From Sphingomonas sp. (GTDB lineage Bacteria > Pseudomonadota > Alphaproteobacteria > Sphingomonadales > Sphingomonadaceae): DNA of 64,000 nt. The first letter of the stretch is position 1; each line of letters opens with the position of its first letter. The translations under genes and the position numbers were made by a program. Where the stretch lies: NCBI RefSeq assembly GCF_030145815.1, contig NZ_JAIXHL010000004.1:124001-188000 (forward strand), read 5' to 3'. Positions 10,577-58,183 of this stretch are shown here, piece after piece. Under the pieces are notes generated by a model. The model was not told the DNA's origin. It saw nothing but the letters and a program-made list of their open reading frames with translations, and searched no databases.

Positions 10577-11752
10577 TCATGCCTGCACCTTCGCGAACGC
10601 TTCACCGGTGCGCACCGTTTTGACCGGTTCGGCGCGCCCCATTCCTGCCGACGCCCAGTCGGCGTCGATCGATTCCACCAGATCGGCCAGGTCGCGGACC
10701 GCATCCGGCCGCCCGACGCTGCGCGCACACGCCGCCGCATGCGCCAGCCCCTCGGGGTCCAGCCCCAGCTTCTGGATCTGCTTCGCCAGTTCCTGCGCCG
10801 TGAACGCCCGCTGCGGGATCGTCCGCGCCCCGCCCGCCGCGCTGATCTCGCGCGCATTGGCCGTCTGGTGATCGTCGGTCGCGCTGGGCAGCGGCACCAG
10901 GATCGCCGGACGCCCCGCCGCAGTCAGCTCGGCGATGGTCGAGGCGCCAGCGCGCGCAATCACGATATGCGTCCAGGCCAGCCGCTCGGGCAGGTCGGGC
11001 AGGTACGTCGCGATCTCGGCCGGAATGCCATGCTCGGCATATTTGCGGCGCACTTCGTCGATATCCTCGACCCGCGCCTGATGCGTCACCTGCAACCGGC
11101 GCCGGAAATGCACGGGCAGCAGCGCCAGGCCATCGGGCACGACCTGCGACAGCACCGACGCGCCCTGGCTCCCGCCCGTCACCAGCACCCGGAAAATCCC
11201 ATCCTCCTCCAGCGGCGGATAGGGCCGCAGCCGCAGCTCCAGCACCGCTTCGCGCACCGGATTGCCGGTCAGATGGGTCTTGCCCGCATAAGCCGGCTTC
11301 AACCGCGCCACCTCGGCATAGCTGGTGGCGATCGCCCCCACCTTGCCCGCGACCAGCCGGTTGACCCGGCCCAGCACGGCATTCTGCTCATGGATCACCG
11401 TCGGCACCTTCGCCGCGAATGCCGCCGACAGCGCGGGCATCGACGCATATCCGCCGAACGCCACCACCGCCGCCGGGCGCAGCTGGCGATACAGCTTGCG
11501 CGCCTGCGCCCGCCCCTTGGCCATGGTACTCAGCGCCTTCAGCCACCCGATCGGCCCGCCGGCAAAGCGCGATGCCGGAACGACATGCGTCTCGATCCCG
11601 TCGAACAGGTCGGGGAAGCGCACCCCGCGCTCGTCCGAAATCAGCGCGACCTTGTGCCCGCGCCGCATCAGCTCCGCCGCGAGCGCTGCCGCTGGAACCA
11701 TATGTCCGCCGGTGCCCCCGGCGGCGAGGACGTATTGCCGTCCCGATGTCAT
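10577..11752 (-). CDS. murG: Lipid II synthase MurG (GlcNAc transferase)
   Basis: Membrane-associated GT28 glycosyltransferase that adds GlcNAc to lipid I. The 391-aa sequence has the N-terminal glycine loop GGTGGH at 12-17, the second glycine-rich region (FGGYAS, VIHEQNA), the C-domain donor-site motif TGGSQGA, and the UDP-GlcNAc-binding stretch [11 protein letters not shown] followed by [10 protein letters not shown]. It is slightly longer than usual because of a C-terminal tail of about 25 residues. The ATG overlaps the ftsW stop by four bases. The 3' side leads into the repeat-bearing gap before murC. Confidence 0.96.
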
Positions 11753-12978
11753 TTATTGCTTCCTCGAACCGTATAGCTTGATCGCTTCAGATACGGGTTC
11801 CGCCGCGTGAAAGCGAGCAGCAGTCCCATCCCGATCGACAATGCCACCATCGACGATCCGCCATAGGAAATGAAGGGCAAGGTCATCCCCTTGGAGGGGG
11901 CAAGGCCGGTGTTGACCGCCATGTTGATCACCGCCTGAATCCCGAATTGGGCCGCCAGCCCCGCCGCCGCGAGCAACCGGAACGAGTCCTCCTCGTCCAG
12001 CAGCTTGATCAGCACGCGCACCACGATGGCCAGGTAGATCAGCGCGATGACGATGCACGCGATCAACCCGAACTCCTCACCCACGACCGAGAAGATGTAG
12101 TCGGTATGCGCCTCGGGCAGCTTGAACTTGACCGTCCCGCCGCCCGGGCCAGTGCCGGTCGCCCCGCCCCCGGTCAGCACGGCGTGCGCCATGTCGGTCT
12201 GATAATGCTCCGCCTGCGCCTTTTCGGGATCGGGGAACAGGAAGCTGTCGATGCGCGTCCGCGCGGTGTCGTAGAACAGATAGGCCGCGACCACCCCGGC
12301 CACGCCCGCACCGCCCAGAAATCCGATCGCGCGCGTCGAAATGCCGGCCAGCATCAACAGCACGACCCACACCGCGGCAAAGATCATCGTCTGCCCGAAA
12401 TCGGGCTGCTTCATCAGCAGCACCGCGATCACGGCGGTCAGCACGCCCGTCACCGGGATCACCGGCAGGCTCGCATCCTTGGCGCGGAGCGACAACAGCC
12501 AGGCAGTCGTGACGATATAGAGGGGTTTGAGAAACTCGGACGGCTGGAACGACGCGATGCCAAAGCCGATCCAGCGCCGCGCGCCGTTGATCTCCGAACC
12601 GAAAAACGCAGCAAGCCCGACCAGCACCACGCAAATCGCGGTGCCCAGGATCGCCCCACGCCGCGCCAGCCCGACCGGCAGCATCGACACGATCAGCAGC
12701 GTCGGAATTGACAGCCCGATCCACAGCGCCTGCCGCCAGAAATAATGCATCGACGCAAACTGCTTGGTCGTATCCGAATAGCGCTCCGCCGACGCCGGCG
12801 ACGCCGCCGCCACCGCGACCAGCCCGATGCCGATCAGCAGGAATGCGAGCAGCAACAGGATGCGGTCGATTTCCCAGAACCACAGGCCCAGCGGCGTCTT
12901 GCTGCCCCGGCTCAGCTGGTCCTCGAACCGCTCGCGCAGCGGTTTGCGCTTGGTGGTCGCGCGGATCACGTCGGTCAT
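11749..12978 (-). CDS. ftsW: Septal peptidoglycan glycosyltransferase FtsW
   Basis: SEDS-family integral membrane polymerase that works with FtsI in septal wall synthesis. The 409-aa product has a basic N-terminal tail, about ten hydrophobic segments starting near residue 35, the loop NGARRWIGFG with the conserved Arg residues after the third or fourth helix, and the family signature near the C-terminus (INMAVNTGLAPSKGMTLPF). It ends with a basic tail. Start ATG at 12978, overlapping the murD stop by four bases, with murG overlapping its own end by four. Confidence 0.96.
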   Translation of the reverse strand: MTDVIRATTKRKPLRERFEDQLSRGSKTPLGLWFWEIDRILLLLAFLLIGIGLVAVAAASPASAERYSDTTKQFASMHYFWRQALWIGLSIPTLLIVSMLPVGLARRGAILGTAICVVLVGLAAFFGSEINGARRWIGFGIASFQPSEFLKPLYIVTTAWLLSLRAKDASLPVIPVTGVLTAVIAVLLMKQPDFGQTMIFAAVWVVLLMLAGISTRAIGFLGGAGVAGVVAAYLFYDTARTRIDSFLFPDPEKAQAEHYQTDMAHAVLTGGGATGTGPGGGTVKFKLPEAHTDYIFSVVGEEFGLIACIVIALIYLAIVVRVLIKLLDEEDSFRLLAAAGLAAQFGIQAVINMAVNTGLAPSKGMTLPFISYGGSSMVALSIGMGLLLAFTRRNPYLKRSSYTVRGSNK

Positions 12979-14372
12979 GACAGGGCCTCCACCGCCGCTC
13001 GGAACTGCTCGCCGCGATCCTCATAATCGCGGAACTGGTCGAATGACGCGCAGGCCGGGGACAGCAGCACCGTCTCCCCCGCCACCGCATTCGCCGCCGC
13101 CGCGCGCACCGCTTCGGAAAGTGTGCCCGAGCGTTCGACCGGCATCTCGTCCTTCAGGAGTTCCGCAAACATCTCGGTCGCGTCGCCGATCGTGTAGGCG
13201 CGGACAATATGGGGGAAACCCGAACGGCAGGCGTCCAGGTCCGCAGTCTTGGCCTTGCCGCCCAAAATCCAGTGAATACGCGGATAGGCTGCTAGCGCAG
13301 GCGCCGTGGACTCAGCATTGGTCGCCTTGCTGTCATTGACGAACAGCACGCCGTTCCGCGTCGCAACCCGCTCCATCCGGTGCGGCAGGCCGGGAAAGCT
13401 CTCCAGCCCCCGGTCGATGCTCGCCTGACCCACGCCCAGCGCCTCGCACGCGGCGATCGCGGCGAGCGCGTTCTGCGCATTGTGCGGCCCCTGCAGCGCC
13501 GGCCAGCGCGACTGGTCCATGCAGAAACCCGGCGCGATCTTGGTCAGGTCTTCCGCCCGCCCGGAGCGCGCAACCTGCTTCGCCACGCCCTGCGAAGCTT
13601 CATCCCCGATCCCGATGATCGCGGCATGCCCGACCGACTGCATCGCAAACAACCGCGCCTTCGACGCCGCATAGGCCTCGAAGCCGTCATAGCGGTCGAG
13701 ATGATCCGGCGTGATGTTGAGCAGCACCGCCACCTCGCAATCGAGGCTCTGGGTCAGGTCGATCTGATAGCTCGACAGCTCCAGCACATAGACGCCCCCC
13801 TCCGGCAACGGCTCCTGCCCCAGAATCGGCAACCCGATATTCCCGCCCAAGCGCGCCGGAATGCCCGCACTCTCCAGAATATGGTGGATCAGCGCCGTCG
13901 TCGTTGACTTGCCATTGGTCCCGGTAATCCCGACCACCTTGTGCGCCGGAAGCTCGGAACGCGCCTGCGCGAACAGTTCGATATCGCCGATGATGGGCAC
14001 CCCCGCATCGCGTGCCTTGGCGGCGATCGGGTGGGTATTCAGCGGAACGCCGGGCGAAACCACGACCCCCGCAAACCCGCTGAGGTCGATCTCCAATGGG
14101 TCGACCAACGCAATAGCCCTCTCCCCTTCAGGGGAGAGGGTTGGGAGAGGGGCCTGTCCACCCAGTGCATCGCCCGCGGCAGAGTCCCCCTCTCCCCGAC
14201 CCTCTCCCCGCAAGCGGAGAGAGGGAGAGAAGGCATCCCGGGCCTCAACCTTCGAATCCCAAGCCGTAACCTGCGCCCCGCCAGCCAGCAGCGCGCGCAC
14301 GCTCGCCGCCCCCGACCGCGCCAGCCCGAGTACCGCAAAGCGTTTCCCGCGCCAGGCGGCGGAAACGATCAC
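12975..14372 (-). CDS. murD: UDP-N-acetylmuramoylalanine--D-glutamate ligase MurD (with inserted repeat)
   Basis: Second Mur ligase; adds D-glutamate to UDP-MurNAc-L-Ala. It has the N-terminal Rossmann domain ([13 protein letters not shown] at 12-24), the ATP loop GTNGKSTT at 151-158, [12 protein letters not shown], and the C-terminal domain with [11 protein letters not shown]. The start is a GTG at 14372 overlapping the mraY stop. At 465 aa it is longer than the usual 430-450. The excess is a block at about residues 49-86, rich in Gly, Arg, Ser and Pro, that interrupts the first domain between [11 protein letters not shown] and [10 protein letters not shown]. That block is the translation of a palindromic repeat also found outside genes at 44860-44989. 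All catalytic motifs are intact, so the enzyme is presumably active. Confidence 0.93.
14117..14227. repeat. Palindromic repeat element inserted in frame within murD
   Basis: A 111-base element (a multiple of three). Its right arm, 14200-14227, is identical over 28 bases to both arms (one inverted) of the element at 44860-44989. Its left arm is a variant hairpin (CCCTCTCCCC-TTCA-GGGGAGAGGG, 14117-14140). Neither arm brings a stop codon into the murD frame. The arrangement resembles in-frame palindromic elements known from Rickettsia genes. Confidence 0.85.
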
Positions 14373-15439
14373 CGCAGTTTCAGCGTCGCCAGCCCCGCCA
14401 GCGCCAGCACGAAGGCGATGATCCAGAAGCGGATCACGACCGTCGGCTCGCTCCAGCCCAGCTGCTCGAAATGATGGTGGATCGGCGCCATGCGAAACAC
14501 GCGCTTGCCGGTGCGCTTGTACCAGAACACCTGGATGATGACGCTCAGCGCCTCGACCACGAACAGCCCGCCGATGATTCCCAGCACCAGCTCATGATGC
14601 GTGGTGACGGCAATCGCGCCCAGCGCGCCACCGAGCGCCAGCGACCCGGTATCGCCCATGAACACCGCCGCCGGCGGCGCATTGAACCACAGGAACGCCA
14701 ACCCTGCGCCAACGATCGCGCCACAGAAGATCGCCAGATCGCCCGCCCCCGCAACATGCGGAATGCCAAGATAGGTCGCGAACACCTTGTTGCCCACGAC
14801 ATAGGCGATCAGCATGAATGCCATGCTCGCGATGATCACCGGCATGGTGGCCAGCCCGTCCAGCCCGTCGGTCAGGTTGACCGCGTTGCCGAACGCCACG
14901 ATCGTGAACGCGGCAAAGACGATGTAGAAATAGCCCAGATCGACGCTGAACTGGCTGAAGAACGGCACATACAGCATGGTCCCGTTCTGCAGCGTGATCA
15001 CCCACGCCGCGACGCCCGCGATCGCGAACTCGCCCAGCAGCCGGACCTTGCCCGAAACGCCCGCAGTGCTCGCCTTGCGGACCTTGTCATAGTCGTCGAG
15101 GAACCCGATCATCCCGAAGCCGAGCGTCACGAAGATGCACGCCCAGATATAGGGGTTGGCCAGATCCATCCACAGCAGCAGCGCCAGCGTCAGGCTGGTC
15201 AGGATCATCAGGCCGCCCATCGTCGGCGTGCCGCGCTTGGCCAGGTGGCTCTGCGGTCCGTCAGCGCGGATCGGCTGCCCCTTGCCCTGCCGGACGCGCA
15301 GCCAGCCGATGAAGCGCGGCCCCAGGATCAGGCCGATGAACAGCGCGGTCGCGACCGATGCGCCCGTGCGGAACGACAGGTACCGGAACAGGTTCAATAT
15401 GCCCGGAAAGCCCAGCCATTCGGCAAGTTCGTACAGCAT
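14369..15439 (-). CDS. mraY: Phospho-N-acetylmuramoyl-pentapeptide transferase MraY
   Basis: Polytopic membrane enzyme that transfers phospho-MurNAc-pentapeptide to undecaprenyl phosphate to form lipid I. The 356-aa protein has about ten membrane helices, the cytoplasmic Asp motif FLDDYDKV near 117-124, the signature [10 protein letters not shown], the [12 protein letters not shown] metal-site loop, and the HHHFE motif near the C-terminus ([15 protein letters not shown]). Its ATG overlaps the murF stop by one base (TAATG) and its own stop overlaps the murD GTG. It is flanked by the enzymes that make its substrate and use its product. Confidence 0.97.
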
Positions 15440-42693: not shown

Positions 42694-44160
42694 ATGAGTT
42701 TGTCGGAAATTCGCGCGCTTACCCGCGCCGGGGCGACCGACGCCGCCTGGTCGCTACTGACGGCGGAGCCCGCCGGGACCGACACGCTGACGCTGCGCGG
42801 CCGCCTGCTCAAGGACCGGGCCGCGACTGCACAGGGCACCGCGCGCATGGCATTGCTGCGCGACGCGGCCGATGCCTATGTCCAGGCGGCGGCGGCGCGG
42901 CCTGCCACCTATCCGCTGATCAACGCCGCCACCCTGTCGCTGCTCGGCGGCGCCCGCGCCCGCGCGGCTCAGCTCGCAACCGAGACGCTGGCCCTGCTCG
43001 ACAGCGGCGCGCATGAGCCCGACACGCGCTACTGGCTCGCCGCCACCCGCGCCGAAGCCCTGCTGTTGCTCGACCGTGAGGTCGAGGCGCGCGCCGCCCT
43101 GCGCGACGCCATCGCCGGCACCCCGCGCGCGTGGGAGGATCACGCCGTCACGATCCGCCAGTTCCGGCTGATCCTGGCCGAACTCGATCGCCCGGCCGCC
43201 TGGCTCGACGCCTGCCGCCCGCCCGCGCCGGTCCATTTCGCCGGCCCCATCGGCATCCGCGCCGACGACGCCCAGTTGGGCACAGAGCTCGCCGCCGCCA
43301 TCGCCGCCAATGGTGCGGGAATCGCGGTCGGCGCGCTGGCAGCGGGCTTCGACATCCTCGCTGCCGAAGCGCTGGTCGGCGCCGGAGCCGATCTGCACAT
43401 CGTCCTCCCCGCCCCGCCCGACATCTTCGTCGCCCGCTCCGTCGCCCCCGCAGGCGAGGCCTGGCGCGCCCGGTTCGAGGCCCTGCTCGCCGCTTCGGCC
43501 CAGGTCGATATCCTCGACCTCCCCGCCGGTCTCAGCGCCGCCGCAGTCGCGCTGGCTGAGGAAATGGCGATCGGCTGCGCCGTCCGCAGCGCGCAAGTGC
43601 TCGACCGCGAAACCATCCTGCTGCGCCTCGCCGGAACCGAGGCCGAGCGCGACCCTCCCGCCCGCGCGAACCTGCGCCGCATCGACCTGCGCGGCGGCGA
43701 CGTCGGTTCAGGCGGCTGCGATCTCGGCCCGCCCGATCAGGTCGCAACTTTGCTCGCCACCGGCCACGCCGCCGCCGATCACCTCGCCGCGCTGACAGGC
43801 GCAGCCCCGCAGCCGCTGCCGTCGGGCTGCTACGTCACCCTCACCGATCCGGTCGCCGCCGCGCACGCCGCACGCGCGCTGTGCGAAGCGACAGGCGAGA
43901 ACGCCGCCATCGTGCTCGACCAGCGCCCGCCCGGCCCGCACGGTGCGCCCGACACCGCCGCGCTGGAGGCGCTGCTCGCCCTCCCCCCGCGCCATTACCC
44001 GATCGCGACCCGCTCCGCCGCGCTCGTGCTGGCCGCACGCGGCGCGCCCTTCCGCCTCGCGCTCGCCGGAGCGAGCGACGCACTGCCGGACTCCGACGAC
44101 TTTTTCAGCCTCTGGCCCGTTCTCAAATCACCAGATCCGACAACAAGCGCGGCGAGCTGA
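42694..44160 (+). CDS. TPR protein with SLOG-like and cyclase-like domains
   Basis: A 488-aa soluble protein. Residues 1 to about 175 are TPR-like helices. Residues about 178-290 match the pattern of SLOG-type Rossmann domains found with TPR and TIR proteins: VHFAGPIGIRAD, then IAVGALAAGFDILAAEALVGAGADLHIVLP, then SVAPAGEAWRARFEALL. The C-terminal third resembles a degenerate class III nucleotide cyclase: GCYVTLTDPVAAAHAARAL near 390 and a terminal segment with PIATRSAALVLA...FSLWPVL. The catalytic metal Asp residues of active cyclases are not evident. Part of the TIR unit by orientation, 96 bases after the previous gene. All domain names are by eye. Confidence 0.6.
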   Translation: MSLSEIRALTRAGATDAAWSLLTAEPAGTDTLTLRGRLLKDRAATAQGTARMALLRDAADAYVQAAAARPATYPLINAATLSLLGGARARAAQLATETLALLDSGAHEPDTRYWLAATRAEALLLLDREVEARAALRDAIAGTPRAWEDHAVTIRQFRLILAELDRPAAWLDACRPPAPVHFAGPIGIRADDAQLGTELAAAIAANGAGIAVGALAAGFDILAAEALVGAGADLHIVLPAPPDIFVARSVAPAGEAWRARFEALLAASAQVDILDLPAGLSAAAVALAEEMAIGCAVRSAQVLDRETILLRLAGTEAERDPPARANLRRIDLRGGDVGSGGCDLGPPDQVATLLATGHAAADHLAALTGAAPQPLPSGCYVTLTDPVAAAHAARALCEATGENAAIVLDQRPPGPHGAPDTAALEALLALPPRHYPIATRSAALVLAARGAPFRLALAGASDALPDSDDFFSLWPVLKSPDPTTSAAS

Positions 44161-44797
44161 CCCGCAGCCCCGCCGCGTCGCGCACGACGATACCGCGCCG
44201 CTCCAGCTCGGCAATCATCCGCGACGCCGTCTCGCGCGTCGTCTGCGCCGCATGCGCGAGCTCGGCCACCACCGGCGGTGGCGCAATCACCAGCCCCGCC
44301 CCCGCCCGCGCCAGCAGCTCGGCACAGATCCGCCCGCGCGCCGTCAGCGTCGAGCGCGCATCCAGCCGCGCGGTCACCGCCTCCAGCTGCCGCGCGAACG
44401 ACGCCGCCAGCGCCGCCCCCAGCTCCGCATGCCGCTCCGCCAGCCGCGGCAGCACCCCCGCCGCAAAGCCCAGCAGCACCGCCGGCTCCACCACCACGAC
44501 ATCCGCCACCGCCGCCGTCGCGCGGGCATACTGCCCGACCCAATCGCCCGGCCCATGCAGCGCCAGCTGGCTGGACCGCCCCGCCGCCGAGCTCGACTCG
44601 ATCTTCACCCGCCCTTCGATCACCAGCCAGAGCGTCGCGACCGCATCCCCCTGCCGCGCAATCGTCTCGCGCCGGCCACAGCGCCGCACGCGCCCGGCAT
44701 CGGCCAGCAGCGCCGCGACGCCCGCGCCACAGCGCAGCACCATCGCCACCGTCGCGCGCAATTCCCCCGCGTTCCCTGATCCAGCCCCCGCCGCCAT
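44123..44797 (-). CDS. Crp/Fnr-family transcription regulator
   Basis: A 224-aa regulator with an N-terminal cyclic-nucleotide-binding (cupin) domain (about 20-135; VIEGRVKIESSS) and a C-terminal winged helix (about 145-215) with a Crp-type recognition helix in AQTTRETASRMIAELERRG. It lacks the N-terminal Cys cluster of Fnr, so it is not an oxygen-sensing iron-sulfur type. The ATG at 44797 is used; the frame extends upstream across a repeat. It runs convergent to the SLOG/cyclase-like gene and overlaps its 3' end by 38 bases, so the two may affect each other's expression. Confidence 0.88.
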   Translation of the reverse strand: MAAGAGSGNAGELRATVAMVLRCGAGVAALLADAGRVRRCGRRETIARQGDAVATLWLVIEGRVKIESSSAAGRSSQLALHGPGDWVGQYARATAAVADVVVVEPAVLLGFAAGVLPRLAERHAELGAALAASFARQLEAVTARLDARSTLTARGRICAELLARAGAGLVIAPPPVVAELAHAAQTTRETASRMIAELERRGIVVRDAAGLRVSSPRLLSDLVI

Positions 44798-44859
44798 GCC
44801 ACGAGCATAACCCGCATGGGCGCAGGCGCGAACCGGCGATTTGCGCGGTGGGTCGGCAT

Positions 44860-44989
44860 CTCCCTCTCTCCGCTTGCGGGGAGAGGGTCGCCGAGCGCAG
44901 CGAGGTCGGGAGCGGGGCAGCGGGATCGGCAAGAGCCAAACCTAAAGCCCCCTCTCCCCAACCCTCTCCCCGCAAGCGGAGAGAGGGAG
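44860..44989. repeat. Palindromic repeat element with 28-base terminal inverted repeats
   Basis: A 130-base element. The outer arms 44860-44887 and 44962-44989 are exact reverse complements over 28 bases, and each arm is itself a hairpin (CTCTCC / GGAGAG around GCTTGC). The right arm is identical to the arm in the murD copy at 14200-14227. It lies between divergent genes. There is no coding capacity of its own that I can support, so it looks like a non-autonomous element mobilised in trans. Confidence 0.85.
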
Positions 44990-45019
44990 AAGAAACCCTC
45001 AGCCCCAAACCCCCTTGCA

Positions 45020-47979: not shown

Positions 47980-48369
47980 TTGTTGCCTCGCGAATAAAAT
48001 GCCCGGCTCCGGGACAGGTTTCTCCGCCCGGCTCCTTCAGCAAGGAACCCGGCGAACCCCATCACGATGTCGGATTGGGGACGCTATCTAGCGACTTGGG
48101 CACAGGGGGGCAAGGGGCTTGGGGAGCAGAGAAATTCCTCCCCTGCACCGCAGGGGAGGAACTAGATGCGTAGCCCTGACAATCCTCCCCGGAACGGGGA
48201 GGGGGACCATACGCAGCATGGTGGAGGGGGCGCGAGGCAATGGAATCCGGTGCCTCGGGCCCCCTCCGTCAGCGCTGCTCCTTCGGAGCAGTTTATCCTG
48301 AGCGCCGCCATAGGCGGCGTCGAAGGGCGCTGCCACCTCCCCGTTCCGGGGAGGATTGCCCTGCCCCCC
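47980..48369. repeat. Compound palindromic repeat region
   Basis: This 390-base gap before secE contains a perfect 12-bp hairpin with a 3-base loop (48135-48161) and, at 48182-48356, a larger element of the CCTCCCCGGAACGGGGAGG family. The larger element is in minus orientation and matches the one at 58057-58183 in its outer stems and GGGGGCCC core. Unlike that copy it has an extra 52-base block with a GCCGCC-TATG-GGCGGC hairpin flanked by CCCTTCGAC and GCTCAGGAT half-sites. No gene fits here. Confidence 0.75.
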
Positions 48370-58056: not shown

Positions 58057-58183
58057 ATCCTCCCCGGAACGGGGAGGTGGCAGCGCGTAGCGCTGACGGA
58101 GGGGGCCCTCCTCGAAGCACGTTGGCTTGCCTCGGGCCCCCTCCACCGGCTCCGCCGGTCCCCCTCCCCGTGCCGGGGAGGAA
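58057..58183. repeat. Palindromic repeat element (CCTCCCCGGAACGGGGAGG family)
   Basis: A 127-base structure with hairpins at both ends (TCCTCCCCGGAACGGGGAGG and CCCCTCCCCGTGCCGGGGAGG) and a central GGAGGGGGCCC / GGGCCCCCTCC pair. It is the same family, in the opposite orientation, as the one near 48182. It lies between the lipoprotein and the rplJ promoter. Confidence 0.8.

Follow-up and report, generated by a model that had tools for sequence, protein, structure and literature searches.

One loop of the essential cell-wall enzyme MurD probably serves, in Sphingomonadaceae, as a tolerated harbour that different families of palindromic repeats have entered, left and refilled many times. The case was first noticed in a single 64,000-nucleotide stretch of Sphingomonas sp. 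DNA (hereafter the window), where the first-pass annotation had described a dispersed palindromic element lying in frame inside murD; that description holds, the element comprising 37 codons and two hairpins and recurring at 25 places in the genome, and the insert is confirmed as such and not as a chance palindrome. Because a dispersed repeat stands in frame in this murD and other repeat families stand at the same place in relatives, the loop, predicted to be floppy, is likely a place where arriving repeats are tolerated. Across the genomes read, we observed dispersed repeats, copies in frame, recurrent occupation of one position by several types, partial losses and confinement of the inserts.

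A dispersed palindromic repeat lies in frame within murD

The features concerned are the following, in window coordinates:

12975-14372, minus strand: murD (UDP-N-acetylmuramoylalanine--D-glutamate ligase), a frame encoding 465 amino acids
14118-14228, minus strand: in-frame palindromic element of type A, 37 codons (codons 49-85 of murD)
14117-14140, plus strand: hairpin 1 of the murD element, 10-bp stem CCCTCTCCCC-TTCA-GGGGAGAGGG, the 3' arm in the murD sense
14200-14225, plus strand: hairpin 2 of the murD element, CCCTCTCCCCGCAAGCGGAGAGAGGG, imperfect stem, the 5' arm in the murD sense
14369-15439, minus strand: mraY, the upstream neighbour, named by sequence motifs and overlapping murD by 4 bases
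11749-12978, minus strand: the gene downstream of murD, which from gene order and sequence we take to be ftsW-like
44862-44987, no strand given: second two-hairpin copy of the same type A family, the window's one other copy

Inspection at the DNA level resolved the murD element into two mutually inverted hairpins with a spacer between them, and an alignment of homologues showed codons 49-85 to be extra relative to MurD relatives of 429 residues (e.g., P0010). The Mur ligase middle and C-terminal domains and the MurD fold are all present in the window protein. An alignment-based AlphaFold2 model (54 sequences, mean pLDDT 84), adopted in place of a discarded single-sequence model (pLDDT 37), sets the insert between a helix ending at residue 53 and a strand at residues 87-89, with pLDDT below 50 for residues 53-84 and likewise for residues 443-447; solved MurD structures align with the rest of the modelled protein, outside the insert. 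The insert is accordingly modelled as a predicted disordered segment within an intact MurD fold, and the earlier statement that the catalytic part is untouched stands. In the Mur ligase fold, this N-terminal-domain loop connects helix 2 to strand 3 and lies away from the strand ends that bind the nucleotide, a position that would explain its tolerance of inserts. The coding strand of the element is itself predicted to fold strongly (-80.7 kcal/mol, z -5.3). A search of Rfam with the element returned no family at the gathering score; the sub-threshold matches, mostly to microRNA families, were taken as chance.

Searching the genome with the murD element yielded 36 match rows (E<=1e-3), grouped into 25 places including murD itself. 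One match, near the end of another contig, is identical to the murD element over 46 bases (100%), and window positions 44948-44990 match the murD copy over 43 bases at 98%, 30 of them exact. The copy at 44862-44987 is covered by no domain in a Pfam search; the minus-strand frame at 44126-44941 carries cNMP-binding and Crp-type domains at residues 87-269, outside the element. The type A family is REP/BIME-like in two respects, namely that its hairpins form an inverted doublet with a spacer between them and that the genome has many copies, most of them outside genes; the element also has inverted ends. Its own-genome loci provided 42 oriented hairpin occurrences of type A, none of which bears a GTAG/CGTC tag and nine of which bear nTAG (n = T, A or C). 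Likewise, Y1-type (RAYT) transposase (PF01797) had no match in this genome, with control genomes positive in 5 of 14 cases, a result also compatible with a mobiliser that may have been lost. Lacking both the tag and a Y1 match, type A was assigned neither to the tagged REPs nor to the RAYT-mobilised REPINs.

Six distinct full type A copies were tested for coding frames: those in glyS and murD lie inside genes, and the other four gave no in-frame signal. The glyS copy scored 40.8/22.9 and the upstream side of the murD copy -7.7, so that the test misses elements close to gene ends; the murD copy, with this negative upstream score, was counted as genic by its frame and domains. A full type A element was also seen directly upstream of the RNA polymerase beta-prime gene (locus L005, C2:250614; Pfam Rpb1 domains). 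Further copies stand at or near the ends of contigs C2, C10, C12, C33, C35, C37 and C55, some with degraded homopolymer runs, and these hairpins therefore appear to break assembly.

Seven repeat types occupy the same position across the genus

In the 120 best listed homologues, what lies between the AWD motif and SPGVP ranges from a short loop to several kinds of insert. We read the murD DNA of the best 90 of 201 genus loci, ranked by match to the insert-bearing query; the sample stops at G140, and seven loci above this cut were left out as contig-edge or truncated (G054, G057, G079, G085, G090, G160 and G166). In 55 of the 90 loci the murD site is occupied by a palindromic repeat, of which seven types (A-G) were distinguished; this proportion overstates palindrome frequency because the ranking used an insert-bearing query. 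What had looked like an isolated insertion is thus one of seven palindrome types found at the same position. Type A (CCCTCTCCCC hairpins, the window's type) accounts for 21 loci, type B (CCCCTCCCCTTCAGGGGAGGGG) for 11 and type C (CTCCCCGGNACGGGGAGG with GGTGGAGGGG) for 18, followed by D (2) and E, F and G (1 each). Types A and B are alike in layout, as are C, D and E, so that the conservative count of unrelated groups, with kinship judged by eye, is four. Three loci hold remnants of type A; L010, L011 and L093 represent partial in-frame losses that left remnants without one arm (in the final labels L010 and L011 are remnants and L028 is type A). Relatives without the insert, whose existence the first-pass annotation had named as support, are found both as the 429-residue MurD and as 12 of the 90 genus genes, which have no extra segment and a loop of 28-30 residues. 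Other, non-palindromic loops fill the remaining 20.

The frame is kept and the loop is free of stops in 90 of the 90 loci read; loop length varies from 28 to 76 residues, and MurD from SPGVP to its end measures 351-364 residues in all 90 (a spread of 13). G082, a genus murD match outside the 90, has two stops inside its match. The same family can be read in more than one frame: type A in one frame in 18 loci and another in 1 (L061), and type B in two frames (8 versus 3 loci), counts that leave out L040 (anchor in the other arm) and L010 and L011 (right arms only). One family in two frames is hard to derive from a single insertion and argues for separate ones. In G022, a further B element (C1:907119-907221) was seen beside the N-terminal end of murD (905715-907094), besides the copy in the loop.

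The types found in murD are, for the most part, repeats that recur elsewhere in genomes. Among 62 of the 90 genomes, a match was present in 58 for type A, 58 for type B and 61 for type C. Left out of this set were G137 and those genomes whose murD was labelled D-G, had another loop or carried the L028 or L093 insert. The counts are of match rows from both strands, only some of the candidates having been scored, and cross-matching between the A and B queries may occur. In the window's genome, the C core GGGGAGGGGGACC occurs 64 times (reversed control, 0). Two C-family cores were noticed in the window itself, at 48196-48208 (C4:172196) and 58157-58169 (C4:182157). Type E gave 38 match rows in its carrier, and type F gave 27 in the genome with F in murD and 71 in a second carrier; type G gave 13 rows in its carrier, most spanning the inner 50 bases and one, besides murD, near full length. 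Sequence searches of the window's genome found neither type F nor type G. Dispersal is shown for the six types searched, namely A, B, C, E, F and G.

Loop state turns over among close relatives

To place these states on a phylogeny, we used a tree of MraY (motif-checked) and the part of MurD after the loop, leaving out the N-terminal part of murD. An earlier tree was marred by an erroneous long branch (L045, 9.58), and its rebuilding moved the count of changes from 48 to 51 with all labels, or 46 with merged labels; L095 and L061 are still long branches in the rebuilt tree. The merged loop state requires at least 46 changes against a shuffled mean of 57.0, which indicates some clustering of state by descent, and the repeat type changes at least 26 times among the 55 palindrome carriers alone. 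Support is starred on 29 of 87 inner branches, and these starred branches alone force at least 11 changes for A, at least 11 for C and at least 8 for B. Seven of the 13 cherries with support of at least 95 differ in state (L028/L094, L026/L035, L060/L096, L073/L087, L047/L062, L043/L051 and L053/L085). Four of these seven pair two different palindromic types (B/E, B/C, D/G and D/F), and L043/L051 and L053/L085 pair a loop without extra segment with another, non-palindromic loop; sisters thus also switch non-palindromic loops, and part of the turnover needs no repeat.

Around the unrelated loops of switching sister pairs, the 300-base flanks are mostly 87-98% identical, apart from some flank windows, several of them far ones, at only 0.24-0.73, where the ungapped comparison may lose register. 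Over the last 54 bases beside the loop, identity falls to 0.35-0.85 in state-differing pairs, versus about 0.9 further out, and this drop fits short-tract recombination as well as insertion. It also lends itself to the strongest alternative, namely that homologous exchange of murD alleles between species mainly swaps the loop, the palindromes having entered few times and travelled with their flanks. A non-palindromic loop, DN.A..W.Q.K.DR..KDW, recurs at separate places in the tree (L014, L051, L054, L055, L064 and L082), a recurrence that suggests just such allelic exchange between species. The origin of the palindromic inserts themselves, however, points elsewhere. The A insert of G096 is nearest to non-murD copies (91, 89 and 88%; one of the next rows lies inside glyS), with the first murD of another species at row 21 (79%), and the B insert of G141 is nearest to non-murD copies at 89-90%, one of them in the own genome of G141, with the first foreign murD at row 30 (82%). 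The C insert of G169 is as near to a dispersed copy in its own genome (90%) as it is to the murD insert of sister G148 (89%), which fits ordinary inheritance. Considering also that the flanks of sister pairs stay alike and that one family is found in different frames, we regard allele exchange as the main cause as possible, though doubtful.

In-frame inserts extend to other genera and other genes

The family set comprised 119 genomes under 96 genus codes, and most of the alignments listed from it run unbroken through the murD site, in spans without room for 30 extra codons. The murD locus was read in 43 of the 119: the 29 best after the window's genome (one of which, L180, is of the same genus) and 14 chosen loci; four of the 43 (L190, L203, L215 and L220) were unparsed. 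Palindromic inserts stand at the same murD place in 10 of the 14 chosen loci, from 8 other genus codes, in a set enriched on purpose, the 14 having been picked for alignment breaks near the site or elsewhere. Nine of these ten inserts have hairpins and one is of type F, backed by a search for F matches. An eleventh chosen locus, L215, has B arms with homopolymer runs between them and resembles an assembly artefact.

The proposal that the same arms should be sought in another coding gene was borne out by glyS (PF02092, E 1.9e-178) of the window's genome, which carries a second type A copy in frame. We read glyS in 30 of the 58 genomes with a match. At site 1, a variable segment of many kinds is present in all 30 genes read, with inverted repeats of at least 13 bases in 22 of the 29 parsed; no empty site 1 was seen among these 30 genes, so that we infer its empty form. 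A second glyS site, judged alike, was noted between PFAQRRSALG and FFADRLK (loci L119-L148), where a hypervariable, non-palindromic-looking segment of ~25 to 120 residues where parsed, wholly different between close relatives (e.g., L119 versus L120), lies between conserved flanks.

Beyond these two genes, in-frame elements were observed as single cases in carA, rnr, a class I tRNA synthetase gene and uvrD. The uvrD case is half a C element in the window's genome (locus L163, C3:192281). Because the coding-score scan for in-frame C elements, which masks 45 codons on each side, missed the murD control, its one candidate among 30 loci is a lower bound. The other three are B elements in G199 (L227, L231 and L234), where 19 element places were tested for frames and only the three best candidates were taken to Pfam; the class I tRNA synthetase gene was taken for ileS-like.

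The constant filling of glyS bears on whether the inserts are merely tolerated, since a site never empty in 30 genes is not what pure neutrality predicts. Selection might keep the hairpins, either as mRNA structures pacing translation or decay or through fast loop diversification that alters an inhibitor- or partner-exposed surface, and the inverted repeats at glyS site 1, the convergence of several unrelated families on one murD position and the strong fold of the murD element strand would agree with this. Yet the 12 of 90 murD genes without an extra segment speak against a need for the insert, most listed alignments of other genera are unbroken and leave no space for it, remnants persist without one arm and the insert is predicted to be disordered; on balance we consider such selection unlikely. 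We would rate no higher the bolder proposal of interchangeable loop cassettes, in which several palindromic families repeatedly rewrite fixed loops of MurD, GlyS and probably other essential enzymes, as a standing mechanism of in-frame loop diversification and not passive tolerance of selfish DNA.

Ribosome skipping or removal of the element from the mRNA, like that of the yeast-mitochondrial byp elements (a case mentioned in PMC6649704), would leave the insert untranslated and could be imagined for an essential gene with a hairpin-flanked insert, but it is very improbable given that all 90 genus loci are in frame with a stop-free loop, which skipping would not require, and that no Rfam family reaches the gathering score. 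Finally, an old conserved MurD loop that looks palindromic only through high G+C has practically no chance of being correct: the first-pass annotation had named a homologous segment of the same length in most relatives as the sign of such a loop, and a segment about as long is indeed found in most of the 90 relatives, but in 55 of them it is a palindrome and not a homologous loop, the types are mutually unlike and those searched (A-C and E-G) match dispersed repeats in their carriers, and the window element shares its 46 identical bases with a copy on another contig.

A proposed history: a tolerated loop refilled by mobile palindromes

The reading that we favour, a tolerated harbour in the MurD loop, can be cast as a course of events. 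The repeats would be moved by trans-acting machinery, and palindromes would insert widely over the genome. In an essential gene, purifying selection would then spare only in-frame, stop-free copies in a tolerant loop far from the active site, the residues encoded by the insert being presumably translated and near-neutral. Turnover may proceed by in-frame deletion followed by new insertion, and recombination with other copies or alleles could help it along.

At this one position in an essential cell-wall gene, several repeat families appear to have arrived, been lost and been replaced many times. As relatives with an empty site exist, the comparison of sister species can directly test how the repeats move, which protein sites tolerate them and whether they are of any use. 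Where core enzymes of sphingomonads (murD, glyS) differ in length, repeat turnover can be the cause, and gene trees, family models and assemblies may be misled by it.

Comparison with known systems

In-frame palindromes as such are already known, from the Rickettsia RPEs and from intragenic REPs, also in Sphingomonadales (PMC3733652); the prior cases are mainly those of Rickettsia, with scattered intragenic REPs. RPEs are palindromes of 105-146 bp that form in-frame fusions with conserved protein genes (Ogata et al. 2000, Claverie and Ogata 2003; as summarized in PMC2229807), and guanylate kinase with an RPE is described as a translated gene product (PMC2229807). The likeness to RPEs, already remarked upon in the first-pass annotation, is one of layout, a palindrome in frame within conserved genes (here murD and glyS), compared by description and not by sequence. 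The present elements differ in their Sphingomonadaceae hosts, in being G+C-rich and two-hairpinned, and in the seven types found at one position.

The same annotation had known of no such element in sphingomonads, which proves too strong. GTAG- and CGTC-tagged REPs and REP dimers have been reported inside genes, including those of UvrD/REP helicase and tRNA synthetase (Di Nocera et al. 2013, PMC3733652), and the intragenic REPs described there for Sphingomonadales lie in tRNA synthetase and tRNA pseudouridine synthase B genes of 'E. lithoralis' and S. alaskensis. The same source describes two Xanthomonas species whose recB genes carry different REPs at roughly the same site. Our elements resemble these intragenic REPs in being dispersed, in lying within genes and in their Sphingomonadales hosts; they differ in that type A hairpins are untagged and that the turnover extends across 90 genomes and several families. 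With BIMEs and REPINs, as portrayed in PMC2817692 and PMC3116915, they share doublets and palindromes in alternating orientation, but here the genome has no Y1 transposase match and copies lie inside essential genes. The enterobacterial RU-1 to RU-3 elements (PMC2759123) are similar as small, MITE-like, intragenic repeats with open frames; they belong to another host group, and their listed description mentions no site-recurrent turnover. A literature search, exclusive of the supplementary list of intragenic REPs in PMC3733652, found no earlier report that palindromes turn over in the murD or glyS of sphingomonads, and what appears to be new is that, across a bacterial family, several repeat families replace one another serially at a single site in an essential gene.
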